A stretch of DNA of 48,032 bases, from IMG/VR virus record IMGVR_UViG_3300027759_000131, positions 1 to 48,032 of that record; one strand, written 5' to 3'. The notes below the pieces were generated by a model. The model was not told where the DNA came from, did not search any database, and saw only the letters and a program-made list of their open reading frames with translations. This stretch comes from a virus. Positions 4,705-44,438 of this stretch are shown here, in pieces (the stretch's first letter is position 1; every line of letters starts with the position of its first letter). The position numbers and the translations under genes are program-made.

Positions 4705-4720
4705 ATTTAAAAGTTAATTT

Positions 4721-4796: not shown

Positions 4797-4961
4797 TTAA
4801 ATAATAACTGCCAGTGGGTATCGTGTAGGGACGCTTACACTAGGCGGGCTGGTCGGGCCATCGATCAGTCCTGAGACAACCACAGCAATGGCTTATGAGA
4901 GGAAGCACCTCACTCAGAAATTTGCCCGGCGTCATAGACCGTGACAGTTATTTTTTAATGG
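4794..4961 (+). ncRNA. Structured RNA between tRNA-Glu and tRNA-Leu
   Basis: The ends pair over 17 positions with one mismatch (4794-4810 with 4945-4961), starting in the CCA of tRNA-Glu. Internal helices include CTGGTC/GATCAG, GCTT/AAGC and GAGG/CCTC. No ORF. It contains ACAGCAA at 4883-4889, a short match to the AGGAT-element motif, but lacks AGGAT and its partner. Confidence 0.6.
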
Positions 4962-4970
4962 TAAAGTTAC

Positions 4971-5053
4971 GCCCCTTTGGTGGAATTGGTAGACACGCTG
5001 GTCTTAGAAGCCAGTGCGCGAGCGTCCGAGTTCGAGTCTCGGAGGGGGCACCA
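4971..5053 (+). tRNA. tRNA-Leu(TAG)
   Basis: Class II tRNA: acceptor GCCCCTT/AGGGGGC, anticodon loop CTTAGAA in CTGGT/GCCAG, long variable arm TGCGCGAGCGT, encoded ACCA. Confidence 0.93.
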
Positions 5054-5058
5054 AATAT

Positions 5059-5144
5059 GGAGTAGAAGCATCAATGGTGATGCAGTGGACTGTAAATCCG
5101 CCGTCGTAATGGCACGCCTGGTTCGATCCCAGGATACTCCACCA
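5059..5144 (+). tRNA. tRNA-Tyr(GTA)
   Basis: Acceptor GGAGTA/TACTCC, anticodon loop CTGTAAA in GTGGA/TCCGC, long variable arm as in bacterial Tyr tRNAs, encoded ACCA. Confidence 0.9.
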
Positions 5145-5159
5145 AATAAAGGAAAGTAT

Positions 5160-5798
5160 ATGAAGTATACTATAATTGAAGATTGCAGTCCATTTTATGT
5201 AAGATTTGCATGGAACGGTATTGAAGACATAATTGCGCTTGTAGCAAGTTTGAGTACTATTGATACAAGTATACGATTTTCAAATAGTACATACACCCAT
5301 TACGATTTTAATGCCGATAAAGCTAATCAAATTATAAACAATTTACCAATGAAATCAGACTTTGATTTTATGATGAATAGAGTAGGGTTGTTTGTCACTA
5401 CACCCGGTTCAAAATCAAGTACTCACAAAGATGCAACAGATCATCGATTCAGTATCAATTTGCCTATTGAAATATTAGACAATAATTGTGTTACTAGTTG
5501 GTATAATGATGAAGAAATTAACGAGTTTAAACTGTCAGACTCTCACCGTGGGTACAGCCGAGTGTTAAAAAGTATAGATTTAACATCTAAAGTACCATCT
5601 AAAACAATGATTGCTCGTCCAAACGAGTGCATATTGTTTAACACTGATGTATTCCATAACTGGGATAACACACAGTCAATTAATCAAAGAATTGTTTTAA
5701 CTCTCCGGGTTAATAATCCCGGCAAAATGTATTTTGATGATGCAAAAAAAATATTATTTGGAAATGTGGCAGAGTCCGGCTTATTGCAACAGTCTTGA
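5160..5798 (+). CDS. 2OG-Fe(II) oxygenase-like protein overlapping tRNA-Ser
   Basis: The ATG at 5160 follows AAAGGAAAG; a longer in-frame reading would run through two tRNAs and is not used. The 212-residue product has a double-stranded beta-helix iron-binding pattern: STHKDATDHRFSINLP supplies HxD (and a following R), DVFHNWDN the distal His, and QRIVLTLR a C-terminal Arg suited to 2-oxoglutarate. The closest style is the aspartyl/asparaginyl hydroxylase group. Its last 39 nt overlap tRNA-Ser(TGA), and its TGA stop codon (5796-5798) is the tRNA anticodon itself. Substrate unknown. Confidence 0.7.
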   Translation: MKYTIIEDCSPFYVRFAWNGIEDIIALVASLSTIDTSIRFSNSTYTHYDFNADKANQIINNLPMKSDFDFMMNRVGLFVTTPGSKSSTHKDATDHRFSINLPIEILDNNCVTSWYNDEEINEFKLSDSHRGYSRVLKSIDLTSKVPSKTMIARPNECILFNTDVFHNWDNTQSINQRIVLTLRVNNPGKMYFDDAKKILFGNVAESGLLQQS

Positions 5799-5849
5799 AA
5801 ACTGTCGATCAGAAATGGTCCGTGAGTTCGAATCTCACCGTTTCCGCCA
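5760..5849 (+). tRNA. tRNA-Ser(TGA)
   Basis: Acceptor GGAAATG/CGTTTCC, discriminator G, encoded CCA; anticodon loop CTTGAAA in ACAGT/ACTGT; long variable arm CGATCAGAAATGGTC. The 5' half overlaps the end of the preceding coding region. Confidence 0.92.
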
Positions 5850-5974
5850 AGTTATACTTGCTGAGTAGCTACACTGGAACACCGAAATACTTGTCAATGT
5901 CGACTATGTACAAGGACCGGCCAGGAAGAGTTGGGCTACCGTGAATTCAAGCGTCACAGCGAGTACCTTTTAAT
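5850..5974 (+). ncRNA. Structured RNA between tRNA-Ser and tRNA-Trp
   Basis: The outer helix TACTTGCTG (5855-5863) pairs with CAGCGAGTA (5957-5965, one G.U). Next comes GTAGC/GCTAC (5865-5869/5935-5939) and an internal CTTGT/ACAAG hairpin. No ORF. It fills the inter-tRNA gap. Confidence 0.55.
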
Positions 5975-6048
5975 GTATCCCTAATGTAATGGCAGCATGA
6001 CAGTCTCCAAAACTGTTCGTCGGAGTTCGAGTCTCTGGGGGTACGCCA
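5975..6048 (+). tRNA. tRNA-Trp(CCA)
   Basis: Acceptor GTATCCC/GGGGTAC, discriminator G, encoded CCA; anticodon loop CTCCAAA in ACAGT/ACTGT. Confidence 0.92.
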
Positions 6049-6052
6049 AGTT

Positions 6053-6127
6053 GGTCTCATAGTATATCGGTTAGTATAATGGCCTGTCACGCCGTAGGGA
6101 CGAGTTCGATTCTCGTTGAGACCGCCA
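6053..6127 (+). tRNA. tRNA-Asp(GTC)
   Basis: Acceptor GGTCTCA/TGAGACC, discriminator G, encoded CCA; anticodon loop CTGTCAC in ATGGC/GCCGT. A canonical Asp tRNA, unlike the odd one at 30-104. Confidence 0.92.
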
Positions 6128-6144
6128 AGTAATTAAAATAGTTG

Positions 6145-6173
6145 TTGACAACAGCGTATATAGAGAGTATAAT
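6145..6173 (+). promoter_or_regulatory. Sigma70 promoter placed for a leaderless transcript
   Basis: TTGACA (6145-6150), 17-bp spacer, TATAAT (6168-6173). The ATG of the next gene starts only 7 nt after the -10 box, at the expected transcription start. Confidence 0.88.
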
Positions 6174-6179
6174 AACAGC

Positions 6180-6410
6180 ATGTATAAAGTTATATGTAAT
6201 GACAAAGAAGTAGAAAGATTTATCACCCTAAACGAAGCAATGTTGTTTGCTAAGTTGTTAGGCACTTTTGTAACTATCAAAGGTCCTGATCTCGAAGTAG
6301 TTGGCCGATTCGGAGTTGACTCTGTAGTAGATGGTAAGTGTCCAGACGGAGTTGCTTATGATTGGAATAAAGCTAGCCGAATTGGTCGTGTAAAACGAGA
6401 ACGAGTTTAA
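6180..6410 (+). CDS. Small phage protein, 76 aa, unknown, probably leaderless
   Basis: The protein begins MYKVICNDKEVERFITL and ends in a basic tail (RIGRVKRERV). The strand-helix-strand pattern suggests a small alpha/beta fold; no family recognised. The start codon coincides with the predicted +1 of a consensus promoter, so there is no room for a Shine-Dalgarno. The same -10 to ATG spacing occurs at the lipoprotein gene at 47230. Confidence 0.65.
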   Translation: MYKVICNDKEVERFITLNEAMLFAKLLGTFVTIKGPDLEVVGRFGVDSVVDGKCPDGVAYDWNKASRIGRVKRERV

Positions 6411-6414
6411 AATT

Positions 6415-6499
6415 GCGACTGTGGTGAAATAGGTAGACACAAGAGACTTAAAATCTCTCGCTGAAGGGCGTGCCGGTTCGATTCCGGCCAGTCGCACCA
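6415..6499 (+). tRNA. tRNA-Leu(TAA)
   Basis: Class II: acceptor GCGACTG/CAGTCGC, anticodon loop CTTAAAA in AGAGA/TCTCT, variable arm CGCTGAAGGGCGT, encoded ACCA. Confidence 0.93.
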
Positions 6500-6506
6500 A
6501 GTATTA

Positions 6507-6594
6507 GGAGAGTTGGCCGAGTGGTTAAGGCAACGGTTTGCTAAACCGTCGTCCCGAAAGGGGCGCATAGGTTCGAATCCTATACTCTCCGCCA
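6507..6594 (+). tRNA. tRNA-Ser(GCT)
   Basis: Class II: acceptor GGAGAGT/ACTCTCC, anticodon loop TTGCTAA in ACGGT/ACCGT, variable arm CGTCCCGAAAGGGGCGC, discriminator G, encoded CCA. Confidence 0.93.
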
Positions 6595-6614
6595 TTAATT
6601 ATAAAAGGAAAAAT

Positions 6615-6854
6615 ATGGCCAAGCCAAATAAAACATTTAAATTGAGCAAGACATCAAAACGTATGATTGCGTTAATGAAAGGCTGTACAGCCGAACAACG
6701 TAATCAATTTAAACGTATGATGATTGATGCTCAAGTATGCAGTGAAATTGTTGTTAAGAGTGCTCCACGTGATAAAAATGCACCACGTGGTGCACCTGGT
6801 GTTGCCGGTACTACTGGCAGTCACGCTTATACAACAACTGCAACAGTAGAATAA
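6615..6854 (+). CDS. Small basic protein, 79 aa, unknown
   Basis: The ATG at 6615 follows AAAAGGAAAA; upstream in-frame reading would enter tRNA-Ser. The N-terminal half is lysine/methionine-rich and helical (KLSKTSKRMIALMKGCTAEQ), the C-terminal tail is Gly/Ala/Thr-rich and probably disordered. A nucleic-acid-binding role is possible but not shown by any motif. Confidence 0.65.
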   Translation: MAKPNKTFKLSKTSKRMIALMKGCTAEQRNQFKRMMIDAQVCSEIVVKSAPRDKNAPRGAPGVAGTTGSHAYTTTATVE

Positions 6855-6861
6855 GAATTAT

Positions 6862-6937
6862 TCCGCCTTAGCTCAGTTGGTAGAGTAGATGACTGTTAAT
6901 CATTTGGTCCCTGGTTCGAGCCCAGGAGGTGGAGCCA
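6862..6937 (+). tRNA. tRNA-Asn(GTT), second copy
   Basis: Acceptor TCCGCCT/AGGTGGA, discriminator G, encoded CCA; D-arm GCTC/GAGT; anticodon loop CTGTTAA in GATGA/TCATT. Confidence 0.93.
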
Positions 6938-6954
6938 AGAAATAAGTAGTATAT

Positions 6955-7030
6955 GGGGGTGTAGCTCAGTTGGGAGAGCGTATGCTTTGCAAGCATAATG
7001 TCGTCGGTTCGATCCCGTCCACCTCCACCA
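6955..7030 (+). tRNA. tRNA-Ala(TGC), second copy
   Basis: Acceptor GGGGGTG/CACCTCC, discriminator A, encoded CCA; anticodon loop TTTGCAA in TATGC/GCATA. Confidence 0.93.
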
Positions 7031-7047
7031 AGTTATAGGAGTTTATT

Positions 7048-7209
7048 ATGGCAGGTAAAGGAAGTAAGCCTAGGCCTTTTAATGTGCCTAAGGAAGAGTT
7101 TGATAAATCGTTTGAAAATATTTTTGGTAAGTATGTTCCGCCTTATTTGCGAAACCGTACAGAAAACAATAGAGAAAAATCAACCGACACCAAACACAAC
7201 GATAAGTAA
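7048..7209 (+). CDS. Small charged protein, 53 aa, unknown
   Basis: The ATG follows TAGGAG at good spacing. The 53-residue product starts MAGKGSKPRPFNVPKEEFDK and ends in a hydrophilic, probably disordered tail. No family recognised. It sits between tRNA-Ala and tRNA-Thr. Confidence 0.6.
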   Translation: MAGKGSKPRPFNVPKEEFDKSFENIFGKYVPPYLRNRTENNREKSTDTKHNDK

Positions 7210-7214
7210 CACAT

Positions 7215-7290
7215 GCCGGTTTAGCTCATTTGGTAGAGCGCCGCTCTTGTAAGGCGGATGTGGTCAGTTCGATTCCGACAACCGGCACCA
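7215..7290 (+). tRNA. tRNA-Thr(TGT)
   Basis: Acceptor GCCGGTT/AACCGGC, discriminator A, encoded CCA; anticodon loop CTTGTAA in CCGCT/GGCGG. Confidence 0.93.
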
Positions 7291-7496
7291 GGTAACCCGT
7301 GATCCCGTACACGTAATAAACGGGGGTGAGGCAATCACCACAGAGAGTGCTAGGTATTCAATGCTATGACCATCCGTCTCCGTTTAGGAGTAGCGGGAAC
7401 GCATTGGGTCAGGACTAACAACCTGCCCAGAAGAAGAAAATGTTACGGACAGAGTAACCGCTCAGTCTAGGGCGCATGTGGTGTGCGTAGCTAGAC
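7291..7496 (+). ncRNA. Multi-hairpin RNA after tRNA-Thr
   Basis: A non-coding stretch of about 200 nt with many clean hairpins: CCGT/ACGG, GGTGA/TCACC, CTCC/GGAG, GGG-CAGG/CCTG-CCC, GTTAC/GTAAC and GTCTAG/CTAGAC with an inner CGCA/TGCG. No ORF. It continues directly into the long helix at 7497-7603, so the two may form one large RNA. Confidence 0.55.
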
Positions 7497-7603
7497 ACTT
7501 TATTAAAACAAATTTAAATCCGTAAAAAGATCAGGTTTGGTATCCCAGGAGCTCTTTGACATAGTCATAACTCTTTATACACCTTAGTTTGTTTTAATAA
7601 AGT
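7497..7603 (+). ncRNA. RNA closed by a perfect 16-bp helix
   Basis: Bases 7497-7512 pair perfectly with 7588-7603. The enclosed 75 nt contain AGCTCTTTGACA (7550-7561), which resembles an rrn boxA core, and no ORF. Together with the hairpins before it and a small TAGTAA/TTACTA-closed stem after it (7628-7684), it fills the 400-nt gap before tRNA-Gly. Confidence 0.55.
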
Positions 7604-7627
7604 ACATTTAACCGATCTATAAGATAG

Positions 7628-7684
7628 GTAGTAAGGACAGGGCACCGGGTGAAACATCCAAAAGCCATAGATGTGCTTTACTAA
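7628..7684 (+). ncRNA. Small closed stem-loop RNA before tRNA-Gly
   Basis: TAGTAA (7628-) pairs with TTACTA at 7684, enclosing GCAC/GTGC and a tight GGGTG-AAA-CATCC hairpin. No coding potential; function unknown. Confidence 0.4.
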
Positions 7685-7689
7685 AATTT

Positions 7690-7763
7690 GCGGGACTAGT
7701 TTAATGGTAAAACAGCAGATTTCCAATCTTCGGTTAGGAGTTCGATTCTCCTGTCCCGCTCCA
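7690..7763 (+). tRNA. tRNA-Gly(TCC)
   Basis: Acceptor GCGGGAC/GTCCCGC, discriminator T, encoded CCA; anticodon loop TTTCCAA, with one C.U mismatch in the anticodon stem. Confidence 0.88.
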
Positions 7764-7783
7764 GAATTTAAAAAGGTCAATAT

Positions 7784-8389
7784 ATGATTTGGTTCGAACC
7801 TCCTTCGCAAATGATAGGATGGGGTTATACAGCACCAAAAGTGCTAGATAACACTATGATTGATTTTGTAACAAGTTATGCCGACGAACATGATTCGTTA
7901 TTTCAATCAGGTGAAATATGGGATAAGGGGAATGAACCAGACAATAATATAGAGAAAAGTTATAGACGAAGTAATATCATGTTCTTAACAGATATGGATT
8001 ATTTTAGAAATTTATACAATCATATTATTGAAACAGTATTAAACGTTAACAATACTCACTTTAAGTATGCGTTAAACTATTTAGAACCCCTACAATATTC
8101 AGTGTATGAATCAGCTAATCTAGGCTATTATGATATTCATACTGATAGTTATTTGCGTAATACTAGCGGGTTTATTAGAAAAGTTTCTTTTAGCATTTTA
8201 TTGGACGATCCGGCAGATTTTGAGGGTGGGGACTTTTTAGTACACGCAACTCAAGAACCTGTAAAAATAGAAATACAAAAGGGAGATATATTTTTATTTC
8301 CATCTTTTGTTCCGCATAGCGTTACACCAGTAACAAAAGGTGTAAGAAGAGCATTAGTAGGTTGGGTTTGCGGACCTAACTTTGTGTAA
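7784..8389 (+). CDS. 2OG-Fe(II) oxygenase, prolyl-4-hydroxylase (PKHD-type) fold
   Basis: The 201-residue protein carries the full signature in its second half: YDIHTDSY (HxD), SFSILLDDPADFEGGDF (typical strand and EGG turn), FPSFVPHSVTPVTKG (distal His) and VRRALVGWV (2OG-binding Arg). This closely follows PiuC/P4H-type hydroxylases, which use 2-oxoglutarate and oxygen to hydroxylate peptide or other substrates. Shine-Dalgarno AAAAGG. It lies between tRNA-Gly and tRNA-Pro, separate from the late oxygenase cluster. Confidence 0.88.
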   Translation: MIWFEPPSQMIGWGYTAPKVLDNTMIDFVTSYADEHDSLFQSGEIWDKGNEPDNNIEKSYRRSNIMFLTDMDYFRNLYNHIIETVLNVNNTHFKYALNYLEPLQYSVYESANLGYYDIHTDSYLRNTSGFIRKVSFSILLDDPADFEGGDFLVHATQEPVKIEIQKGDIFLFPSFVPHSVTPVTKGVRRALVGWVCGPNFV

Positions 8390-8398
8390 AGAATAATT

Positions 8399-8475
8399 CG
8401 GAGTGTAGCGCAGTCTGGTAGCGCACCTGGTTTGGGACCAGGGGGTCCAAGGTTCGAATCCTTGTACTCCGACCA
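8399..8475 (+). tRNA. tRNA-Pro(TGG)
   Basis: Acceptor CGGAGTG/TACTCCG, encoded ACCA; D-arm GCGC/GCGC; anticodon loop TTTGGGA in CCTGG/CCAGG. Confidence 0.92.
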
Positions 8476-8490
8476 TTTTAAGGAAACTGT

Positions 8491-9057
8491 ATGAATACAG
8501 TAGTTGATCAAAATGATTTATGCCGTACTTATAATTTCAACGGACTAATAACCCCGGCTGATAAAGTGCTGGCTATAAGCACTATTGATAGTATAATTGA
8601 TTCTGGCAATTATTTTAAAAACAGTCCCCCATATCAAACACAAGAAAATTTATTTGCTAGACCTGAACCTATTTGGTTAAAATATAGAATGACATTTTTA
8701 ACCAGTGTGTTTTTATATCTAGGGCACGAAGCTCGTGTAGCCAACATGATGGCATGGAGTTTTAAAACTAATCTGAGTACTGTAGAAGATCGTGATAGCT
8801 ATTGGCATCACCATAACAAGCACAGTGGACAAAGTCTTAGCGGTATCATGTACTTACATATACCCGACGATGTACAAGATAGAGATACATGCGGCACTGA
8901 GATGGCACCTAATGGTCCAGAAAGCGATGGCAAGTTTTTTATTCGCCCAAGTTATTATACTTGGATGATTTATCCGGGTGCGGTTTGGCATAGGCCGGGC
9001 ATTGTACAAAGTGATCAATATCGCTATATACTTGCCGCAGATGTAGATATACAATAA
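8491..9057 (+). CDS. Putative 2OG-Fe(II) oxygenase (2OG-FeII_Oxy_5-like)
   Basis: The 188-residue protein has YWHHHNKHSGQSLSGIMYLHIP, which fits the W-x-H-x-H...LSG-x-x-Y pattern of this group, then MIYPGAVWHRPG supplying a distal His, and YRYILAAD as candidate 2OG-binding strand. The HxH in place of HxD is also seen in relatives of this subfamily, so activity is plausible. Shine-Dalgarno AAGGAA. It lies between tRNA-Pro and the initiator-like tRNA. Confidence 0.7.
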   Translation: MNTVVDQNDLCRTYNFNGLITPADKVLAISTIDSIIDSGNYFKNSPPYQTQENLFARPEPIWLKYRMTFLTSVFLYLGHEARVANMMAWSFKTNLSTVEDRDSYWHHHNKHSGQSLSGIMYLHIPDDVQDRDTCGTEMAPNGPESDGKFFIRPSYYTWMIYPGAVWHRPGIVQSDQYRYILAADVDIQ

Positions 9058-9064
9058 TGAATGA

Positions 9065-9139
9065 CGCGGGGTAGAGAAGTGGCAACTCACGAGTCTCATA
9101 AGCTCGAGATCGGCGGTTCGAATCCGTCCCCCGCAACCA
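9065..9139 (+). tRNA. Initiator-like tRNA-fMet(CAT)
   Basis: It starts CGCGGGG and ends CCCCGCAACCA, giving the unpaired C1.A72 end that marks bacterial initiator tRNA for formylation. Anticodon loop CTCATAA. The anticodon stem (CGAGT/GCTCG) lacks the three consecutive G-C pairs typical of initiators, so it is initiator-like with one deviant feature. Confidence 0.85.
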
Positions 9140-9142
9140 ATT

Positions 9143-9217
9143 CTCGCTGTAGTTCAATGGATAGAACAAGGCACTCCTAACGCTTAGATCCAAGTTCGAT
9201 TCTTGGTGGCGGGGCCA
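9143..9217 (+). tRNA. tRNA-Arg(CCT)
   Basis: Acceptor CTCGCTG/TGGCGGG with wobbles, discriminator G, encoded CCA; D-arm GTTC/GAAC; anticodon loop CTCCTAA. The anticodon stem has an A.C mismatch next to the loop. Confidence 0.85.
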
Positions 9218-9218
9218 G

Positions 9219-9247
9219 TTGACAACTATAACTAATAGTGTTATAAT
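9219..9247 (+). promoter_or_regulatory. Sigma70 promoter of the omega-subunit gene
   Basis: TTGACA (9219-9224), 17-bp spacer, TATAAT (9242-9247); it starts 2 nt after the CCA of tRNA-Arg. Confidence 0.9.
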
Positions 9248-9265
9248 TAAATTTTAAGGACTTAT

Positions 9266-9496
9266 ATGCGTAAACTTTCCGATAGTAGAGGCACACTAAT
9301 TGACACAGAACAATGTGTTGAAAATGTAGGAACTAATAGATTTGATTTAGTTTTAATTGCGGCAAGCCGTTCAAGAGAAATCCGTAGACAACATAAAGAA
9401 AGCGAAAAGCGTGAACACATTTTTCCAATCATAACAGCCTTACAAGAAATTCAAGAAGGCAAGATTGGCAAAGAGTACTTGAGTAGAGTACGTTAA
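9266..9496 (+). CDS. rpoZ: RNA polymerase omega subunit homologue
   Basis: The 76-residue protein aligns by eye with bacterial omega: VENVGTNRFDLVLIAASRSREI matches the conserved NRFDLVLVAARRARQ helix region, and ITALQEIQEGKIGKEYL matches IALREIEEGLI. Omega clamps the C-terminus of beta-prime, aids assembly and, in proteobacteria, contributes to the ppGpp site. A phage copy could replace host omega and change the polymerase. It has its own consensus promoter and a TAAGGA site, and is followed by tRNA-Val. It is slightly shorter than host omega and lacks the acidic C-terminal tail. Confident in the family; the effect on transcription is inferred. Confidence 0.9.
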   Translation: MRKLSDSRGTLIDTEQCVENVGTNRFDLVLIAASRSREIRRQHKESEKREHIFPIITALQEIQEGKIGKEYLSRVR

Positions 9497-9503
9497 GAAT
9501 ACT

Positions 9504-9578
9504 GCCTGGTTAGCTCAGGGGTAGAGCAACGCCTTTACACGGCGAAGGTCCGCGGTTCGAAACCGTGACCAGGTACCA
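9504..9578 (+). tRNA. tRNA-Val(TAC)
   Basis: Acceptor GCCTGGT/ACCAGGT, encoded ACCA; D-arm GCTC/GAGC; anticodon loop TTTACAC in ACGCC/GGCGA. Confidence 0.92.
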
Positions 9579-10357: not shown

Positions 10358-11767
10358 ATGAACGCATTTGTAACAGCAGTAGCAAACCAAGAAGCCCGTA
10401 CCCAAAACGGTATGAAGGCACGTAAGTCAACAGCTTCGGCTTGTGTTGACTTGTTCTATAACATTGGTGCAAGCCGTGGCAAGGACATCACAGGCGACTT
10501 TACAGCCGCTTATGTAGAAAACTCAGACGTAGCACTACGCATCGCACAATGGGCACGTGATGTCCGTGGTGGTGCAGGTGAACGTCAACTGTTCCGCGAC
10601 ATTCTAGTACATCTAGAAAAGCGTGACCCAGACGCCGCTTTGGCTCTGTTGAAGAAGGTTCCAGAAGTGGGCCGTTGGGATGACATCTTTGTCTTCACTT
10701 CACCAGTGTTGAAGTCAGCCGCTTATACCATGTTGGGCGATGCCCTACGTGCTAAGAACGGTTTGGCTGCAAAGTGGACTCCTCGTAAGGGTAAAATCGC
10801 GGCTGAAGTGCGAGCATTCTTTGGAATGTCTCCTAAGCAGTACCGCAAGTCATTGGTAACAATGACCACAGTTGTTGAAACTCAAATGTGTGCAGGAGAT
10901 TGGGACAACATCAACTTCAGTCACGTGCCAAGTGTTGCTTCACGCAACTATAAGAAGGCATTCAACCGTCACACAACTCTGTTCGCAGAATATGTGGCCA
11001 AGTTGGTAAGTGGTGATAAGACTGTTAAGGTTAACGCCAACGCAATCTTCCCACATGATGTGCTGAAGGGAATCGCTCACAGCTACACCAAGCTGGACAA
11101 GACAGAAACTGACCATGTGATTGCACAATGGGACGCTCTGCCTAACTACGTAGGTGACGCAAGTATTCTACCTCTAGTTGACGTATCAGGTTCTATGACT
11201 ACCCCAACAGGTGGTAAGGGCGATGTGCGTTGTTTGGACGTTGCAGTTAGCCTTGGCTTGTACTTGGCAGATAAGAACAAGGGTGCGTTCAAGGACACAT
11301 TCTTGACTTTCTCCAGCAAGCCAGAACTTGTAACCCTAAAGGGTAACATTGTTCAAAAGGTGGAACAAATGTCTAAGAGCAACTGGGAAATGAGCACTAA
11401 CTTGCATGCCGCTATGGACAAGATCCTAAGCGTTGCAGTTAAGGGTTCTGTACCAGCTAGCGACATGCCAGCCATGTTGTTAATCTTGTCAGACATGCAG
11501 TTTGACCAATGCGCCCGTTACGACGACAGCGCAATGCAAATGATCGAACGCAAGTTCGCAGATGCAGGTTACACTGTGCCGCAGATTGTTTTCTGGAACC
11601 TAAACAGTACCGGTAACGTGCCTGTGGCGGCTGACAAGAGTGGTGCCGCATTGGTAAGTGGATTTAGCCCATCAATCATGACTAGCTTGCTAGCCGCTGA
11701 TATGGATCAATTCACTCCAGAAGGCATCATGCTCAAGACTGTAATGAGTGATCGTTACGCTCTGTAA
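10358..11767 (+). CDS. Ro60/TROVE-vWA-like RNA-binding protein (DUF2828-type)
   Basis: The 469-residue protein has an all-helical N-terminal region (about 1-265) with the GGAGERQLFRDI segment (71-82) typical of this family, then a von Willebrand A domain with an intact MIDAS: DVSGS (275-279), Thr347 in MSTNLH and Asp379 in LSDMQF. This is the Ro60 architecture: a HEAT-like ring that holds RNA 3' ends, plus a vWA domain. Bacterial Ro proteins act with Y RNAs encoded beside them in RNA quality control and repair. Here four copies of a covarying RNA element stand directly upstream. Shine-Dalgarno AAAGG. Codon use is noticeably more host-like (CGT, GGT, GCC-rich) than in the late cluster, suggesting high expression. 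Family placement is by motif and layout. Confidence 0.75.
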   Translation: MNAFVTAVANQEARTQNGMKARKSTASACVDLFYNIGASRGKDITGDFTAAYVENSDVALRIAQWARDVRGGAGERQLFRDILVHLEKRDPDAALALLKKVPEVGRWDDIFVFTSPVLKSAAYTMLGDALRAKNGLAAKWTPRKGKIAAEVRAFFGMSPKQYRKSLVTMTTVVETQMCAGDWDNINFSHVPSVASRNYKKAFNRHTTLFAEYVAKLVSGDKTVKVNANAIFPHDVLKGIAHSYTKLDKTETDHVIAQWDALPNYVGDASILPLVDVSGSMTTPTGGKGDVRCLDVAVSLGLYLADKNKGAFKDTFLTFSSKPELVTLKGNIVQKVEQMSKSNWEMSTNLHAAMDKILSVAVKGSVPASDMPAMLLILSDMQFDQCARYDDSAMQMIERKFADAGYTVPQIVFWNLNSTGNVPVAADKSGAALVSGFSPSIMTSLLAADMDQFTPEGIMLKTVMSDRYAL

Positions 11768-15591: not shown

Positions 15592-16428
15592 ATGAAATAT
15601 CATATCCACAGTAATGGATGGACTGTTATACTTGATGATTTTGATATGGCCACATGCAGTCAAGATGATGTTAATCTGATTGGCAAATTAGTTAACGAAT
15701 ATACACTAGTGGTTGCTAAAAAACAGTTTGTTACAGTGGAAGAAGAAACTAGGTTTGTTAATATGTGGCACAATCCTATCCCGCAGTTAACACCCAAAGA
15801 CGGCGATAAATTTACACACATTGCTGTAGATACAGAAGGAAAGATATTAAGAATTTCTGGAATTAAAGACGAGCATGGAAACGATTTGGGGTTAGCTGGA
15901 CACGAAGATGAAATGGCGTGGCATTCAAACCCTCCAGAAGATCCAGCACGTAATTCAATAGTATATTTAAGAGCAGTAGAAGGGTCAGTAGGTTCACAAA
16001 CAGAATGGAACAATACTATTTTGATATGGAATGAATTGTCCCAAGAAGAAAAAGATAAGTTGCTCCCACTTAAAGTCATACCTAAAGTTGGTGCTAGTTT
16101 ATCTGGCTATAAAGACAGAGATACTAATGGTCAAGAAATGCCTGACCAAACAAGATTTAATCTTGTGCATACTAATCTAGCAGGTAAGACGGGTTTATAT
16201 TTTCCGTTTGTGCAGTTATCGCGTTTTGAAGATATGACGGTAGAGGAAAGTAGAAAGATTATGGATCCACTTGCGGAACTGGTCACTCAACCCAAGTACT
16301 GTTATAAGCATGATTGGGAAGATGGAGATATGGTTATTGCAGAACAATGGCTAGGCATACATAGACGATTGCCTTTTAAAGACATAGGCAAAAGATTATT
16401 ACATAGAGCTGGATTTGACGCACCATGA
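15592..16428 (+). CDS. TauD/TfdA-like dioxygenase, tandem copy 1 (HxN variant)
   Basis: The 278-residue protein follows TauD-type 2OG dioxygenases: an N-terminal YTLVVAKKQ strand, AWHSNPPEDPARNSIVYLRAVEG at the first iron-binding site (His111) and EQWLGIHRR near 251-259 at the distal His/Arg site. The usual HxD is HxN here, as in all four tandem copies. Asn is a poor iron ligand, so the protein may need another ligand, run altered chemistry (halogenase-type enzymes also lack this carboxylate), or be a binding protein. First gene of a four-gene operon with 4-nt ATGA overlaps. Confidence 0.8.
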   Translation: MKYHIHSNGWTVILDDFDMATCSQDDVNLIGKLVNEYTLVVAKKQFVTVEEETRFVNMWHNPIPQLTPKDGDKFTHIAVDTEGKILRISGIKDEHGNDLGLAGHEDEMAWHSNPPEDPARNSIVYLRAVEGSVGSQTEWNNTILIWNELSQEEKDKLLPLKVIPKVGASLSGYKDRDTNGQEMPDQTRFNLVHTNLAGKTGLYFPFVQLSRFEDMTVEESRKIMDPLAELVTQPKYCYKHDWEDGDMVIAEQWLGIHRRLPFKDIGKRLLHRAGFDAP

Positions 16429-17288
16429 AATATCACTTACATGAAAATGGGTGGACTGTTATCCTAGACGATTTTAACATGGCTACTTGTACACAAACTG
16501 AAATTAATTTAATAGAACGACTGATTGCCAAGTATACGCTAGTTATTGCTAAGAATCAACACGTTAATAAAGACGAAGAAATTAGATTTATTAAAATGTT
16601 TCACAATCCAATACCTATCATGCCTCCCGGCAGTCCAGGCTTTGATAGTATTGCAGTAGATCCTGAAGGATTAATTTTAAGGGTAACAGGCGAAAAAGAC
16701 AATGAAGGCAATGTTACCGGCATAGCAGGACACGATGAAGAACTAACATGGCATGCCAATGTGCCGTATGATCCAAATAGAAATTCTATAATTTACCTAA
16801 GGTCGGTGACAGGTTCAGCTGGATCTGTCACCGAGTGGAATAACACAATACTGGCATATCACGATTTACCGCAAGTAACTAAAGATCAATTAGCAACACT
16901 TAAAATCGTTCCTAAGAAAGGAACAGAACGCGATATGCGGATTGGGTATGCTTTAGAAACCGGAGAAGAACAACCTGATCAAACACGGTTTGATTTAGTG
17001 TATACAAACATAGCAGGCCAAATCGGCCTATATTTCCCTTATAATCAAATAGCTCGATTTGATGGCATGACCGTAGAGGAAAGTAGAAAGATTATGGATC
17101 CGTTATTTGAACACGTTACACAATCTAAGTATTGTTATAAGCACAATTGGGACGATGGAGATGCAACCATAGCAGAGCAATGGCTAGGTATACACAGACG
17201 CTTGCACTTCGATCGAATGGAATATCGAGTATTACACAGAGCAGGATTAGATTTTTCTCCGCAAAATTACGATGGAATAATAGAATGA
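16425..17288 (+). CDS. TauD/TfdA-like dioxygenase, tandem copy 2 (HxN variant)
   Basis: A paralogue of copy 1, with 287 residues and the same landmarks: TWHANVPYDPNRNSIIYLRSV at the first site and EQWLGIHRRL at the second. It has a longer insertion around RVTGEKDNEGNVTG. ATGA overlap with both neighbours indicates translational coupling. Divergence between copies is spread over the surface while the KYCYKH(N/D)W(D/E)DGD segment is nearly identical, which suggests a shared core and different substrates, or different subunits of one complex. Confidence 0.8.
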   Translation: MKYHLHENGWTVILDDFNMATCTQTEINLIERLIAKYTLVIAKNQHVNKDEEIRFIKMFHNPIPIMPPGSPGFDSIAVDPEGLILRVTGEKDNEGNVTGIAGHDEELTWHANVPYDPNRNSIIYLRSVTGSAGSVTEWNNTILAYHDLPQVTKDQLATLKIVPKKGTERDMRIGYALETGEEQPDQTRFDLVYTNIAGQIGLYFPYNQIARFDGMTVEESRKIMDPLFEHVTQSKYCYKHNWDDGDATIAEQWLGIHRRLHFDRMEYRVLHRAGLDFSPQNYDGIIE

Positions 17289-38048: not shown

Positions 38049-39010
38049 TATATTTTCCTTTTGGGTATTTTGCTATCTGCACTACTTACGCACATAGGAG
38101 TAATACATATTTTAGGTTCTTTGAATAATTCAAAACCTGTAAGGATATTTCCTATATTATTTTCCTTACAACTGTAAGCACGTTTAACTTCAGTACCTCT
38201 TATTATAACACTTTGATAGCCTGCATTGCAACCCCATCCTTGGAACTTATTAAATCCTAATGCGTTAAATCTTTCTGCTTGATCGATGTAGTAATCTTTC
38301 TCTCCATCATTAAGTCTAATTTGAAAAACTTCTCGTTGTTCATATTCGTCCTGCATAATTTTAATCATTTCAGGAGTGTATCCTTCTACAATAGCAGTAG
38401 CAGTATCATTGCTTTGTGGTTTGAGTGTTACATTAATCCCACGTTTGCGTAATCGTTCACAACGTTCTAGTGTTTCAAAAAACTTGGCTGGAACCATTAC
38501 TTGATTGACAGTAACGTGTACTAGTTCGTACATTAACTGTAGACACTTGTCGCCAAACTCTTGCTCCTTGGCAAACTCATCATGAAAGCTGGCTGTAATA
38601 CTTCTACGTTGTAACATCTCAGTGTTCTTACACCAAGTGTTCCACCATTTACTACCAGGCGACAAATTAGTAGTCATGTGTATACTCTGGTAAGTACTTT
38701 CAAGTTCGTCTAGGTATTTTACCAATTCGGGTAATTGTTTATATGCTGTAGGTTCGCCACCACTAAAGCTCCAATGAAATCTATCAAAACCATTAGCTCG
38801 TGCCTGACGCTTAATTTCATCTATTGCAGACTTGTACACATCTAAAGTTTGGTAATCTAATTTGTCGCTTCGGGCATATGGCCAACAATAGCTACAGTTA
38901 TAGTTACAAAATCTACCCAGTATCCAACTTACGTTAAATAGTTTGGTATCCAACATGGTTTGTTGTCCAAATTGGACTATATTTTGGAAAGGAATTTGGC
39001 TAAAGTTCAT
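38048..39010 (-). CDS. Radical SAM protein, CNYNCSYC type, operon head
   Basis: CNYNCSYCWPYARS (Cys35, 39, 42), FSGGEPTAYKQL, and a C-terminal GWGCNAGYQSVIIRGTEVKRAYSC ... ICITPMC region with auxiliary-cluster cysteines. It has 320 residues. First gene of an eight-gene minus operon. A TATTTAAT (minus-strand ATTAAATA) 8 nt before the ATG is a weaker late-type box. Confidence 0.82.
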   Translation of the reverse strand: MNFSQIPFQNIVQFGQQTMLDTKLFNVSWILGRFCNYNCSYCWPYARSDKLDYQTLDVYKSAIDEIKRQARANGFDRFHWSFSGGEPTAYKQLPELVKYLDELESTYQSIHMTTNLSPGSKWWNTWCKNTEMLQRRSITASFHDEFAKEQEFGDKCLQLMYELVHVTVNQVMVPAKFFETLERCERLRKRGINVTLKPQSNDTATAIVEGYTPEMIKIMQDEYEQREVFQIRLNDGEKDYYIDQAERFNALGFNKFQGWGCNAGYQSVIIRGTEVKRAYSCKENNIGNILTGFELFKEPKICITPMCVSSADSKIPKRKI

Positions 39011-39051
39011 ACTGGCAGTATTTAATGTTTACAGTATGAGCTCAAAAATAA

Positions 39052-39080
39052 TTGACATGCTAGCCAAAAGACAGTATACT
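39052..39080 (+). promoter_or_regulatory. Sigma70 promoter upstream of the tRNA-like RNA
   Basis: TTGACA (39052-39057), 17-bp spacer, TATACT (39075-39080). Predicted start is at or just before the tRNA-like acceptor strand at 39087. Confidence 0.82.
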
Positions 39081-39086
39081 TACATT

Positions 39087-39204
39087 GTAGACGTGAGTGG
39101 AACATGGTATACCTCCTCCTAGTAAGCTGACCCCCAGCTGAACGGAGGGACAGGGCTTGTGACTTAGTCATGCTTTGCAGGTTCGAATCCTGCCGTCTAC
39201 ACCA
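39087..39204 (+). ncRNA. 118-nt tRNA-like RNA with expanded central region
   Basis: Acceptor GTAGACG (39087-39093) pairs with CGTCTAC (39194-39200), followed by ACCA; T-arm GCAGG-TTCGAAT-CCTGC is canonical. The part that should hold D- and anticodon arms is about 43 nt too long: CCTCC/GGAGG encloses AGCTG/CAGCT, then GTGAC/GTCAT with a 3-nt loop. No standard anticodon arm is seen. The transcript would start almost exactly at the acceptor, needing little 5' processing. It may be a tRNA mimic, a tRNA with an insertion, or a degenerate tRNA. Confidence 0.65.
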
Positions 39205-39233
39205 TTTTTAACACAGGCACAGAAAGGCATTTT

Positions 39234-39536
39234 ATGAAAAAAGTATTTTTAATCTTAGCGTTGATTTCTAATGTGGCAACTGCCCAGACTATAGGTATGA
39301 TTTATCCTAGTAAGAATTTGATTACTAGTACTACAATTACTTGGAAATTTTCAGACAACGTACCTGAAGCATGTAATGCCGAAAGAAAACGTTGGGGCGA
39401 ACCTGCTTATCAAGTACCTAGTAGAGCTTGTGCCTTTTGGACTAAAGATACTTGTTTAATTATTACGGCACGTGAGACACTGCCAGAATCACTAGCACAT
39501 GAAGTATTACATTGTTTCCAAGGTAAATGGCATTAA
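39234..39536 (+). CDS. Exported zincin-like protein
   Basis: A signal peptide (MKKVFLILALISNVATAQ, cleavage after ATA or TAQ) precedes a roughly 82-residue mature domain with five cysteines and LAHEVLHCFQGKWH, an HEXXH zinc site with Gly and a third His close behind, similar to but one residue longer than the metzincin HExxHxxGxxH. Probably a small periplasmic or cell-wall-side metalloprotease or a degenerate relative. Shine-Dalgarno GAAAGG. It follows the tRNA-like RNA, and the next gene starts in its stop codon. Confidence 0.72.
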   Translation: MKKVFLILALISNVATAQTIGMIYPSKNLITSTTITWKFSDNVPEACNAERKRWGEPAYQVPSRACAFWTKDTCLIITARETLPESLAHEVLHCFQGKWH

Positions 39537-40075
39537 TGAAAAACGTAGCATCAAGTCCTGAACGACACACTTTCCAAAAGGAAGGCGCAATCCAACGGGC
39601 AGAAGAAGCGGGCGAAGAGCCCAATCAAGCCTACATTGACATGTGGGATCAAATCAAGATTGACGACGCCAACAAGATCCACGATCCAGCCTGGCAACGG
39701 AACAATATGGAGTATGATCTCCGTAGTAGTAAAGAACTGTGCGACAAAGTCAAAGCCAGCGATGCTTATGCTCAGAATTTGTATGCGGCTATGTGTAATA
39801 TGACTTGGCAAAGTCGTGAGTTTTGGCAAGAGCTAAAAGGCGAAGTATGGAGTGCTAGTTGGCGCCATAGCGGTGGCATTGTTGCTGACATGCGTGAACA
39901 AGGTGACTACATTGATTGGTACTGTAGCGGTATTGGTAACGATGACTTGGGATACGGATTAGATTCTAGACCAGCAACTGGCTATGTTCCAGAAGGGCAA
40001 GTAACAGAAGAAATTGAATTGGATTTGAATCGATTAGGTTGGCGGCCAGTTCCTTGGAATGATGATGAAGATTGA
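39536..40075 (+). CDS. Phage protein, 179 aa, unknown
   Basis: The start at 39536 (TAATG overlap) is preferred over one at 39527. Acidic, Trp-rich protein (NMEYDLRSSKELCDKVKASDAYAQNLYAAMCNMTWQSREFWQEL) with a final acidic tail (VPWNDDED). Looks like a soluble helical domain. No family assigned. Overlaps the methyltransferase-like gene. Confidence 0.65.
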   Translation: MKNVASSPERHTFQKEGAIQRAEEAGEEPNQAYIDMWDQIKIDDANKIHDPAWQRNNMEYDLRSSKELCDKVKASDAYAQNLYAAMCNMTWQSREFWQELKGEVWSASWRHSGGIVADMREQGDYIDWYCSGIGNDDLGYGLDSRPATGYVPEGQVTEEIELDLNRLGWRPVPWNDDED

Positions 40076-40664
40076 TTTAGAACACTTACACTATTGGATG
40101 CAAGCCATTAGGCAAAGTCCAGATCCTATGCGAACCATGGATGCTTTTTGGTCTGGACAACTTAACAGCAAATCATGGCTCATACAAGCCCTGAGTATGC
40201 AATATTCAGTTAAAGATGATCCAGTCAGTATAGAAATACACGGCGGCTGGGTAGGTGTGTTGGCTAGCATGTTGTTTCAAAGTAAGATTCCTATCAAACG
40301 CATTTATAGTCTTGACATCGATCCCACCTGTGAGCCTATTGCTACCATGATGAACAAGGGCGAAGAGATGCAAGGCAGGTTTCAGGCTAGTACCGGCGAC
40401 ATGTGCAATCTAATATCATTTGTTGATGTAGTGATCAATACCAGTTGCGAACATATAACACAAGAACAATATGAAACATGGTTAAGCAAGCGCCAAGATA
40501 ATCAGTTGTTAGTGTTGCAAAGTAATAATTATAATATAGACGAACATATTAGAATTGCCAAGTCAGTTGACGAATTTGCAGAACAGTGTAAAATTAAAGT
40601 TAAATGGAGTGGAGAATTACAATTGCCGCTATACAAACGATTTATGATAATTGGAACCAAATGA
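40059..40664 (+). CDS. SAM-dependent methyltransferase-like protein, copy 2
   Basis: A 201-residue paralogue of the protein at 919-1461: HGGWVGVLASMLF (glycine loop), IYSLDIDPTC (acidic strand end), VVINTSCEHI (motif IV position), LQSNNYNIDEHI. It has an extra 30-residue N-terminal helix. Three in-frame ATGs in a row (40059, 40062, 40065) could serve as start. The gene is followed by an AbrB-like protein and IF-1 with overlapping ends, so it may belong to a translation-linked operon. Confidence 0.7.
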   Translation: MMMKIDLEHLHYWMQAIRQSPDPMRTMDAFWSGQLNSKSWLIQALSMQYSVKDDPVSIEIHGGWVGVLASMLFQSKIPIKRIYSLDIDPTCEPIATMMNKGEEMQGRFQASTGDMCNLISFVDVVINTSCEHITQEQYETWLSKRQDNQLLVLQSNNYNIDEHIRIAKSVDEFAEQCKIKVKWSGELQLPLYKRFMIIGTK

Positions 40665-40831
40665 CAACATTAACATTTACAGTTGAAGAACTTTTTGAAG
40701 ATATTCCCGGGGATCCGGATAATGTTATTTTAAAACTTCCTCCAGAAATTTGCGAAGCACAAGGATGGGTAGAAGGTACTACTCTCAACATTCAAGTAGA
40801 AGATGGAAAAATGATTATTAGCAAAGTATGA
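40661..40831 (+). CDS. AbrB/MazE-like DNA-binding protein
   Basis: The start at 40661 overlaps the methyltransferase stop as ATGA; an earlier in-frame ATG would overlap by 60 nt. The 56-residue product has the SpoVT/AbrB swapped-hairpin pattern: VILKLPPEICEAQGWVEGTTLNIQVEDGKMIISK, where L-P-x-E and the G-W-x-x-G-x-x-L turn are typical. Such proteins dimerise and bind DNA, as MazE antitoxins or regulators. No toxin partner is obvious next to it, so a regulator is more likely. Confidence 0.75.
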   Translation: MTTLTFTVEELFEDIPGDPDNVILKLPPEICEAQGWVEGTTLNIQVEDGKMIISKV

Positions 40832-41046
40832 GTAAGGACGATTTACTGGAACTGACTGGACAAGTCACTGAAGTATTACCGGGTAATATGTATAGGGTAC
40901 AGCTAGATGATAACCAGCATATTATCCTAGCCTACTTGGGCGGCAGGCTAAAACAACATAAAATTAAAATTATTTTGGGCGATAAGGTCCGGGTGGAAAT
41001 AAGCACTTACGACTTATCAAAAGGTCGTGTAACATATAGGTTATAA
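40828..41046 (+). CDS. infA: Translation initiation factor IF-1 homologue
   Basis: The 72-residue protein matches bacterial IF-1 over its whole length: LTGQVTEVLPGNMYRVQLDDNQHIILAYLGGRLKQHKIKIILGDKVRVEISTYDLSKGRVTYRL aligns with the OB-fold including the GDKV-x-VE and YDLSKGR-I hallmarks. IF-1 occupies the 30S A site and helps select initiator tRNA. With the initiator-like tRNA at 9065 and the large tRNA array, a phage copy could bias initiation toward phage mRNAs, several of which look leaderless. Translationally coupled (ATG overlaps upstream stop). The family call is strong. Confidence 0.93.
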   Translation: MSKDDLLELTGQVTEVLPGNMYRVQLDDNQHIILAYLGGRLKQHKIKIILGDKVRVEISTYDLSKGRVTYRL

Positions 41047-41047
41047 C

Positions 41048-41716
41048 ATGAATACAGTAATGGAAACGGTATCTTCTGTTTGCAATCAAGTTAGACATAA
41101 CAGCAAACACGGTGTAAGTTTTCAAAATCTGTTGACCATGCTACGCAGAGAATTTCGAGAGCGCGGATTTAATCTCAAAATAAAATCTGATAGAGACAAG
41201 CATCTTGGAACAGAGGAATTTTACGTCAATGCGTACTATGACTCGGATGACGATCAAAACAATGAAATCCCCATTGAAGTTGTTGTACATCACAATTTTG
41301 AGAAATCTGCTGTTTGGGACAAAAAGCATACCACAGAATTTTTAATACAAATATTTGATGCTACTGTACATGAATACAAACATCAAAGACAGAGTATCAA
41401 ACGTAAACATCATGTGTACACTCAGAATGTCAAATCACCATACAAAGAATATCTAGCCGAAGACGATGAACTCGATGCTTATGCACTTAGCATTGCTATT
41501 GAACTTTGCCGCACATTGGGAAAATTTAGAGCATTGCGTTACATGCATCGAATCTCAGCTCTTGCCAAATTAAAATTTAACGGTAGATATGTTAGCCCAA
41601 ACCTAGCGGCTTATTTTGGACAGTTTGAATCAATAGACAATCCTTTGCTCAAAAAGTTATCCAAAAAGGTATATGTACGACTACAGAAGATTGACACAGA
41701 TGCAGTTTTCGTATAA
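41048..41716 (+). CDS. HEXXH zincin-like phage protein
   Basis: The 222-residue protein has DATVHEYKHQRQ (His108, Glu109, His112), an HEXXH site, followed about 30 residues later by AEDDELDAYA, which can supply a third acidic ligand as in gluzincins and SprT-like proteins. No signal peptide, so it acts in the cytoplasm, or in the virion. Unrelated in sequence to the exported zincin-like protein at 39234. Starts 1 nt after the IF-1 stop. Confidence 0.65.
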   Translation: MNTVMETVSSVCNQVRHNSKHGVSFQNLLTMLRREFRERGFNLKIKSDRDKHLGTEEFYVNAYYDSDDDQNNEIPIEVVVHHNFEKSAVWDKKHTTEFLIQIFDATVHEYKHQRQSIKRKHHVYTQNVKSPYKEYLAEDDELDAYALSIAIELCRTLGKFRALRYMHRISALAKLKFNGRYVSPNLAAYFGQFESIDNPLLKKLSKKVYVRLQKIDTDAVFV

Positions 41717-41719
41717 AAT
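41691..41719 (+). promoter_or_regulatory. Sigma70 promoter of the HNH operon
   Basis: TTGACA (41691-41696), 17-bp spacer, TAAAAT (41714-41719, one mismatch), inside the end of the zincin-like gene. Confidence 0.72.
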
Positions 41720-41746
41720 ACTTGCATATTAACTAAGAAAGACATT

Positions 41747-42331
41747 GTGGCATACTACACTATCAAAGAACTTAACCAGTTTAGTCATAGGATAGCAAGG
41801 GAGATTGCTCTTGAACAAGGAATAAAACGCAAGCCGCATCCTAGTTACAGTGATTTGGATCATCCAGAGTGTGAAACGCACGGATGTTCAAATCCCAAAC
41901 AAGTATCAAATTGGCACTGGACTAGCGGTGAGCCTGTTTATCGACCTGTATGCCAATTGTGTCACGATGTCAATACTGCTAAAAGATACGCTGAAAAAAC
42001 AGGTGCATCGTGGGTACAGAATGTACAAGATGTTTGTGCCCATAAAGAAGGTTTTAATTCTGCTACTGAATGGTTAAACAGCAAACACCCGTATAGGCAA
42101 TATCGTAAAGACTATTGTGAAAATATAGACGGACGATTAGGATTTGTATGTACTACAACTATAGTTTGGGATGGTATGTTAGATGTGGATCATATTGACG
42201 AAGATCCGTCCAATAATAATCCAAAGAATCTACAAACCTTGTGTTCCTGTTGTCACAAATACAAAAGCAATATATTTGTTAAAGAAAACGGAAGAACTCC
42301 TGGACGTAAAACTTTAGGCATAAAATACTAG
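41747..42331 (+). CDS. HNH endonuclease
   Basis: GTG start with a weak AAGAAAG site. The 194-residue protein ends in LDVDHIDEDPSNNNPKNLQTLCSCCHKYKS, a full HNH motif (DHID, N-x-x-N-L, C-x-x-C-H) with a structural zinc; more CxxC pairs (CETHGC, CQLC) lie in the N-terminal half. Could be a free-standing homing nuclease or a packaging or host-degrading nuclease; there is no interrupted gene beside it. Confidence 0.88.
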   Translation: MAYYTIKELNQFSHRIAREIALEQGIKRKPHPSYSDLDHPECETHGCSNPKQVSNWHWTSGEPVYRPVCQLCHDVNTAKRYAEKTGASWVQNVQDVCAHKEGFNSATEWLNSKHPYRQYRKDYCENIDGRLGFVCTTTIVWDGMLDVDHIDEDPSNNNPKNLQTLCSCCHKYKSNIFVKENGRTPGRKTLGIKY

Positions 42332-42339
42332 GAAGAAAA

Positions 42340-43026
42340 ATGAAAGAATTTCCTACCCAACAAGTTCTAGAATTAGCTTGTGCGGCACAACGGGTCAACG
42401 GTGCTTATATTAAAGAGTCCGCACCAGTATATTCGGAAGACGGTGCGTTCATGTATCTCAAACAGACCAACAAGATGATGATGCTCTGCACACTGGATCA
42501 TCGACATTGGACTGCGGATCCAAAAGATGCACCAATGCCTCTTAAAGTATTGCCAGAAGACATAGCACAAGCAGAAGAGATCCGCAAGTACTTTCGTAAA
42601 TTCTTGTTTAGTGCTATTGAAGGTGAAAATGATTTTCAAACTAATATAAACACAATCCTATCAAGCGATACAGTCAAACAAAATCAATTTGGTTATGTAG
42701 CTTGTTTGCCCAGCGTTCATATTAGAGATGTTGCTCAAACCAAAGTTAAGAAGGCCGCACGAGCAGTTGAAGAAGGATGTTTAGCAGAAATTGGTAGTAC
42801 AGTTAAAGATTTGGATGCGGAAATAATCTCCTCAGTTAAGTCAAAAAACTTTGAAGGCTGGAATATAGATGCTATAATAAACAACAAGATGGTGTCTTGG
42901 ATGAACAAAACGGATCTTAAATTAGGGCCTGCTGTAATAGTTAAAGCCAAAGTTAAAGATTGTAATAAGCATTGGAAACATCAAAACGATGTTACTAGAT
43001 TACACTATGTAAAGGCGGCGCAGTAA
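42340..43026 (+). CDS. Phage protein, 228 aa, unknown
   Basis: Starts MKEFPTQQVLELACAAQRVNGAYIKES. Basic middle section with repeated Lys/Ala (TKVKKAARAVEEGC), and a C-terminal AVIVKAKVKDCNKHWKHQNDVTRLHYVKA that looks like a beta-barrel strand pair with a basic end. Organisation suggests a nucleic-acid-associated T4-type early protein; no family assigned. It overlaps the following start by 1 nt (TAATG). Confidence 0.65.
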   Translation: MKEFPTQQVLELACAAQRVNGAYIKESAPVYSEDGAFMYLKQTNKMMMLCTLDHRHWTADPKDAPMPLKVLPEDIAQAEEIRKYFRKFLFSAIEGENDFQTNINTILSSDTVKQNQFGYVACLPSVHIRDVAQTKVKKAARAVEEGCLAEIGSTVKDLDAEIISSVKSKNFEGWNIDAIINNKMVSWMNKTDLKLGPAVIVKAKVKDCNKHWKHQNDVTRLHYVKAAQ

Positions 43027-43823: not shown

Positions 43824-44438
43824 ATGAAACAAGAACTAGATAAGTTGTTGTGCGAGCGGTATCCAAAGATGATGGTTAATCGCAACAAGAACATGCAAGA
43901 AACTTGCATGTGTTGGGGATTTGAATGTGGCGATGGCTGGTTCAATATCCTAGATCAGCTGATGGGCAGTATTCAGCATCATATCGATTGGAAAGAGAAA
44001 CAGCGTAAGTGGGCAATTGAATATAACGAAATGGCCACTCAGGCAAAAGCTGGTAACTTTGATTTGTTTGAAGAAACTACAAAAGCTCAACCCAATGACG
44101 AATACAAAGAAAAGCGACTGGCGGAAATTGTTGCTGGAGACTTTAGAGAAGTGCCCGAATCTATTCCGCAGGTAACACTGGATCAAGTCAAAGAAAAGTT
44201 TGGCACACTGAGATTTTATTACTCAGGTGGAGATGACTACATCAGCGGTATGGTGTCGTTGGCAGAAAGCCTAACAGGCGTCACTTGCGAAAGCTGTGGC
44301 AATGTTGGAGAGCGCCGTGGCGGCGGATGGGTGCATACATACTGCACACCATGTGAAGAAGCACGTGAAATCAAACGTGCTAAAGAGACGGAAGAATGGG
44401 AACAACGTAAACTACTTAAAGAAGGATTTGAAGAATAA
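43824..44438 (+). CDS. Phage protein with C-terminal zinc-ribbon-like module, 204 aa
   Basis: The C-terminal third holds VTCESCGNVGERRGGGWVHTYCTPC, two CxxC pairs as in a zinc ribbon, preceded by QVKEKFGTLRFYYSGGDDYISGMV, a segment that recurs in many phage and bacterial small proteins. The N-terminus has another cysteine-containing CMCWGFECGDGW block. Probably a metal-binding domain of unknown role. Shine-Dalgarno AGGAAA. Confidence 0.68.
   Translation: MKQELDKLLCERYPKMMVNRNKNMQETCMCWGFECGDGWFNILDQLMGSIQHHIDWKEKQRKWAIEYNEMATQAKAGNFDLFEETTKAQPNDEYKEKRLAEIVAGDFREVPESIPQVTLDQVKEKFGTLRFYYSGGDDYISGMVSLAESLTGVTCESCGNVGERRGGGWVHTYCTPCEEAREIKRAKETEEWEQRKLLKEGFEE

Follow-up and report, generated by a model that had tools for sequence, protein, structure and literature searches.

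Phage-type IF-1 gene and its genomic setting

The stretch of DNA analyzed here, referred to as the window, is a 48,032-base IMG/VR record. At positions 40828 to 41046 on the plus strand, it carries a gene for a phage-type translation initiation factor IF-1 (infA), the 72-amino-acid product of which, MSKDDLLELTGQVTEVLPGNMYRVQLDDNQHIILAYLGGRLKQHKIKIILGDKVRVEISTYDLSKGRVTYRL, contains GDKV and YDLSKGR motifs. A preliminary description of the sequence had read this product as a full-length IF-1, and the InfA profile search that it proposed gave a score of 97.3 bits against the NCBIfam equivalog TIGR00008 (infA; cutoff, 61.15). The protein also matched Pfam eIF-1a (1.1e-21) and IF-1 chains in the PDB (7.9e-21), and its PHROGs entry, phrog_30201, is labeled "unknown function." An AlphaFold2 model (pLDDT, 88) predicts a five-stranded OB barrel (strands at residues 6 to 17, 21 to 26, 32 to 37, 53 to 59, and 65 to 71) with a short helix (residues 40 to 43) between strands 3 and 4, and it resembles two 30S-bound IF1 structures, 1hr0_W and 9fco_I (TMq, 0.92). 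The profile matches and the predicted fold confirm the reading of the gene as one encoding a genuine IF-1. A chance open reading frame or another OB-fold protein, such as RsgA or RNase II, was excluded, because the infA scores were far higher.

The IF-1 gene has no Shine-Dalgarno motif of its own, and its start overlaps the stop of the gene directly upstream (40661 to 40831, plus strand) in an ATGA sequence, which probably reflects translational coupling. This small upstream gene is AbrB/MazE-like, with a sub-cutoff match to MazE (9.4e-5) and a match to phrog_661 (1.1e-8), and it was found at 48 of 81 IF-1 loci in a synteny comparison. A downstream gene (41048 to 41716, plus strand), to which protein families assign no function, is conserved at 59 of the 81 loci; its product, which has no good family match, contains a HEYKH motif reminiscent of a metal-binding site. 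In a second group of loci, the IF-1 gene lies within a tRNA array, a few kilobases from an initiator-like tRNA gene. An Rfam scan of positions 39000 to 43000 of the window gave no match. Elsewhere in the window, at least seven radical SAM genes lie between 22182 and 36200 (two with an HMPTM zinc ribbon and two with SPASM), a very dense set for a phage, and a TauD-like dioxygenase is encoded upstream of this cluster at 16425 to 17288.

IF-1 proteins up to 100% identical to that of the window occur across many viral contigs. Two large relatives are a 356-kb contig (G001), with an IF-1 98.6% identical to the window protein, and a 345-kb contig (G002), with an IF-1 73.6% identical. G001 and the window have in common the IF-1 block with the genes on its flanks and parts of the tRNA region, and among the products of G001 are the large terminase subunit, a contractile tail sheath protein, and a ribonucleotide reductase. 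Because G001 shares these blocks and carries terminase and tail sheath genes, the window most likely represents part of the genome of a tailed jumbo phage of about 350 kb. The same two genes exclude a misfiled bacterial contig. We read the origin as freshwater from the contig set and the published counterparts.

Distribution, selection, and residue signature of the phage clade

The preliminary description had called IF-1 rare in phages. This holds for named phage records, of which 36 of 50,697 had an IF-1 match by tblastn, some of these being host DNA, but it fails for uncultured freshwater jumbo phages, since IMG/VR holds at least 194 viral loci with this IF-1 clade. One named record, CAKLQH020000005 ("Acinetobacter phage MD-2021a"), is a bacterial chromosome, with ansA, truA, infA, and leuB, and host DNA may also account for several IF-1 matches in "phage" records of Listeria, Staphylococcus, and Enterococcus. 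The 80 phage loci kept from the at least 194 encode proteins 67 to 100% identical to the window protein, whereas the best 80 bacterial IF-1 loci among the matches listed reach only 46 to 58%. In a maximum-likelihood tree, the main phage clade forms one branch apart from bacteria (support, 100/98; length, 0.61), although the alignment has only 72 columns and deeper placement is unsure. Recent capture from a host was excluded, as the best listed bacterial proteins are this distant and the phage proteins group separately in the tree.

The phage IF-1 is under strong purifying selection, with a median dN/dS of 0.063 over 140 pairs in the clade and, between the window gene and its near relatives, a dN of 0.006 against a dS of 0.32 to 0.99.

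Comparison of 43 distinct clade members with 81 bacterial IF-1s revealed a consistent residue signature. A one-residue insertion between strands 2 and 3 is present in all 43 phage proteins and in none of the 81 bacterial ones. Replacement of H35 by Y is likewise universal in the clade, R41 and the aromatic residue (Y/F) at position 44 are each replaced by K in 42 of 43 members, S37>G and K/M42>Q are further changes, and the clade lacks the basic tail past the last Arg. Retained features include a basic residue at positions 39, 46, and 64, together with R66, R70, Y60, D61, and G65, and the YDLxKGR motif is invariant. According to PMC10913371, K39 contacts the 530 loop, R41 and R46 contact A1492/A1493, and the residues that face S12 are H35, R64, and R66. 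Loss of the basic 30S-binding residues, which the preliminary description had named as evidence against a working factor, was not observed: K39, R46, K/R64, R66, and the C-terminal R70 are basic, and R41 has become K. Since R41, which contacts A1492/A1493, and the aromatic residue at position 44 are both K in the clade, the affinity or behavior of the phage protein may differ from that of host IF-1.

Initiator-like tRNA, accessory genes, and start signals

The window begins with an array of 28 tRNA genes called by ARAGORN, interleaved with small open reading frames (30 to 9578, plus strand), and similar arrays occur in the 356- and 345-kb relatives. ARAGORN called no Ile, Tyr, or Cys tRNA among the 28, and the earlier characterization of the set as nearly complete is fair. 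Adjoining the array, a large DUF7788/DUF2828 protein is encoded at 10358 to 11767 and is classed by PHROGs as RNA binding (phrog_850, 9e-141).

A tRNA(CAU) gene at 9065 to 9139 (plus strand) had been described as initiator-like, and the initiator hallmarks are real. Positions 1 and 72 do not form a Watson-Crick pair (the window has C1.A72, and two relatives have A1.A72 and G1.A72), the formylation determinants A11:U24, G2:C71, and C3:G70 (taken from PMC7949028) are all present, and the anticodon loop is CUCAUAA. The tRNA is nevertheless not canonical. Its anticodon stem reads C27-G43, G28-C42, A29-U41, G30-C40, and U31.G39, so that two of the three consecutive G:C pairs (29-41, 30-40, and 31-39) are replaced, and we therefore term it initiator-like. 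Conservation of these three pairs is high across all domains of life (PMC7949028), and A1339 and G1338 of 16S rRNA grip pairs 30-40 and 29-41 (PMC11497404). Phages were found generally not to encode tRNA-fMet in settings where this tRNA is a VapC target (PMC10264068), and evasion of nucleases could therefore explain the altered stem instead.

The anticodon stems found at IF-1 phage loci were AGU/GCU (six), GGU/GCC (four), and AGG/CCU (one). Natural variants of the three G:C pairs are known from mycoplasma and rhizobia, and one Mesorhizobium genome carries a match to CUCAUAAGC. An initiator-tRNA pattern match in G336, one of the IF-1 records compared below, is not a tRNA, and 13 matches to the U31.G39 pattern in 11 of 80 Bacteroidota genomes were read as non-tRNA sequence.

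We compared 11 IMG/VR records of at least 50 kb selected solely for IF-1 with 24 viral records of at least 50 kb selected for a tRNA-Asn. An initiator-like tRNA was present in 10 of the 11 IF-1 records but in only 7 of the 24 controls (Fisher P = 0.0009, a value that overstates independence because the IF-1 records are related). Among these initiator-like tRNAs, the CUCAUAAGC (G39) type accounted for 9 of 10 in the IF-1 records and 1 of 7 in the controls (Fisher P = 0.004, again with related IF-1 records). The U31.G39 pattern was absent from 200 sampled Pseudomonadota genomes, 129 of which had the G31-C39 pattern, and viral contigs gave at least 120 matches to each pattern. IF-1 was found in 4 of 25 large viral records with the U31.G39 type and in 0 of 17 with the G31-C39 type (P = 0.13). 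The U31.G39 type is thus spread more widely than IF-1, occurring in many viral contigs that mostly lack the factor. Because 21 of the 25 large records with this tRNA lack IF-1, the factor is not required for it, and a strict dependency between the two was excluded. The association of IF-1 with the tRNA is a correlation.

Other initiation genes are unevenly represented. A bS21 gene above the Pfam cutoff is present in six of the seven large IF-1 relatives; a candidate in the window (44281 to 44397) scored 13.6 bits, under the cutoff, and we do not claim it. Neither IF2 nor IF3 was found in the large records tested, which leaves no phage-encoded partner of either kind there, and host IF2 and IF3 would therefore be used. 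Peptide deformylase is present in one large relative only (G001, 174996 to 175445) and was excluded as a constant partner; the enzyme would act on formyl-Met starts.

Messages of this phage had been described as apparently leaderless, a view that the start signals contradict. Shine-Dalgarno-like motifs precede 22% of starts and 4% of internal ATGs in the window, 40% and 5% in G001, and 46% and 6% in G002, a 5- to 8-fold enrichment, and a G peak lies at -11 to -7 before starts in G001 and G002. Such motifs go unrecognized by Bacteroidia ribosomes (PMC9976891), and on that account we infer that the host more likely lies outside Bacteroidia.

Possible roles in initiation and relation to known systems

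That the phage protein works as an IF-1 is most likely and is well supported by its sequence. The reading that we favor, and consider probable, is that the phage makes a functional IF-1 that replaces host IF-1 on the 30S subunit and sustains or biases initiation together with phage tRNA and bS21. The gene would be expressed, probably with its translation coupled to that of the AbrB-like gene upstream, and its product would bind the host ribosome, take the A site of the 30S subunit, and displace host IF-1, cooperating there with host IF2 and IF3. The phage fMet-type initiator tRNA would act alongside, as would phage bS21 in the relatives, and the outcome could be initiation that is sustained during infection or biased toward phage messages, and phage mRNA or the initiator tRNA of the phage might be preferred. 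Against this explanation stand the changes at positions 41 and 44, the fact that bacteria already possess their own IF-1, which makes the benefit questionable, and the normal use of Shine-Dalgarno motifs at starts, which provides no special cis-signal marking phage messages.

IF1 anchors both IF2 and IF3 and has been proposed to stabilize the discriminating position of the IF3 C-terminal domain (PMC5037330), so the altered decoding face of the phage protein could alter the stringency of the checks on initiator tRNA and start codon. Such a change would suit an accompanying initiator tRNA that deviates from the three G:C pairs. One possible, though doubtful, alternative is accordingly that the clade surface is tuned to the phage tRNA, relaxing IF3 inspection so that a tRNA with A29-U41 and U31.G39 is accepted. 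The anchoring role of IF1, the part played by the three G:C pairs in IF3 inspection of initiator tRNA (PMC7949028, PMC11497404), the enrichment of initiator-like tRNAs and of their G39 type in IF-1 records, and the absence of the U31.G39 type from the Pseudomonadota sample all point in this direction. They are set against the many U31.G39 records without IF-1, the relatedness of the records, which makes the counts nonindependent, and G002, which pairs IF-1 with a G31-C39 tRNA; moreover, the phage tRNA retains G30-C40, which is among the two pairs that 16S rRNA grips, and may thus already be acceptable. We think it unlikely that phage IF-1 with its altered decoding face, a phage-specific initiator tRNA lacking the full set of three G:C pairs, and bS21 form a dedicated module, that is, a parallel pathway in which shifted IF3 inspection would favor phage tRNA and messages over those of the host.

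The clade-wide changes at the decoding face (R41>K, Y/F44>K, H35>Y, S37>G, and the loop insertion) would also be expected of a decoy or inhibitor, an IF-1 homologue that fills the A site with altered contacts, slows host initiation, and favors mRNAs with strong signals. Every basic contact position and the core fold are kept, however, and strong purifying selection suits a working factor at least equally, which makes a decoy quite improbable. IF1 has side activities as an RNA chaperone and in transcription antitermination, and small OB folds are versatile; in addition, the window-type gene adjoins AbrB-like and unassigned genes rather than translation genes. An RNA-binding OB-fold protein with such a job outside initiation nevertheless seems very improbable given a score 36 bits over the infA equivalog cutoff, the retention of initiation-specific residues, and the location of IF-1 in other members inside a tRNA array near an initiator-like tRNA.

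Phage takeover of translation has mostly been attributed to codon supply or to shutting off the host, whereas a conserved phage IF-1 accompanied by a noncanonical initiator tRNA draws attention to the initiation step. This combination also brings within reach of experiments the long-standing question of why nearly all initiator tRNAs have the three G:C pairs and by what means a virus might loosen or circumvent the check on them. Should phage IF-1 alter the choice of start site or initiator, it would also offer orthogonal translation a compact tool.

Phage IF-1 as such is already known, and the idea that huge phages use it to redirect initiation was published in 2020 (Al-Shayeb et al., PMC7162821). 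As here, that study found phage IF1, along with tRNAs and ribosomal proteins, in genomes larger than 200 kb, but there IF1 and IF3 are two entries in a long list of factors, whereas we found no IF3 in the large records tested and describe a defined IF-1 clade with a residue signature, its selection, and a co-occurring noncanonical initiator tRNA. The clade signature and the link with an initiator tRNA deviating from the three G:C pairs look new, no report of them having been found within the literature searched. Phages of about 300 kb from freshwater also encode bS21, an initiation-related ribosomal protein, together with tRNAs (Chen et al. 2022, PMC9723584), as do most of our large relatives for bS21; we found IF-1 nowhere in the main text of that study. 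Its phages were predicted to infect Bacteroidetes, whereas the Shine-Dalgarno use of our relatives is a poor fit to a Bacteroidia host.

The phage clade shares with bacterial IF-1 (Pseudomonas aeruginosa 2n78, Escherichia coli 9fco, and Thermus 1hr0) its length, OB fold, basic 30S face, YDLxKGR motif, and C-terminal Arg; it differs in the strand 2-3 insertion, R41>K, Y/F44>K, H35>Y, and the missing basic tail. By tblastn, IF-1-like proteins are also encoded by Lak phage, Sinorhizobium phage Phosso, the annotation of which includes IF-1, and Bacteroides DAC phage. These are only 42 to 48% identical to the window protein, and the aligned copies are without the beta2-beta3 insertion. In our tree, Phosso, LR756511, and the DAC16 Bacteroides phage fell on other branches, and Lak merely joined the base of the main clade. 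A "translation initiation factor 1A" has also been named in Jug phages (PMC12363816).
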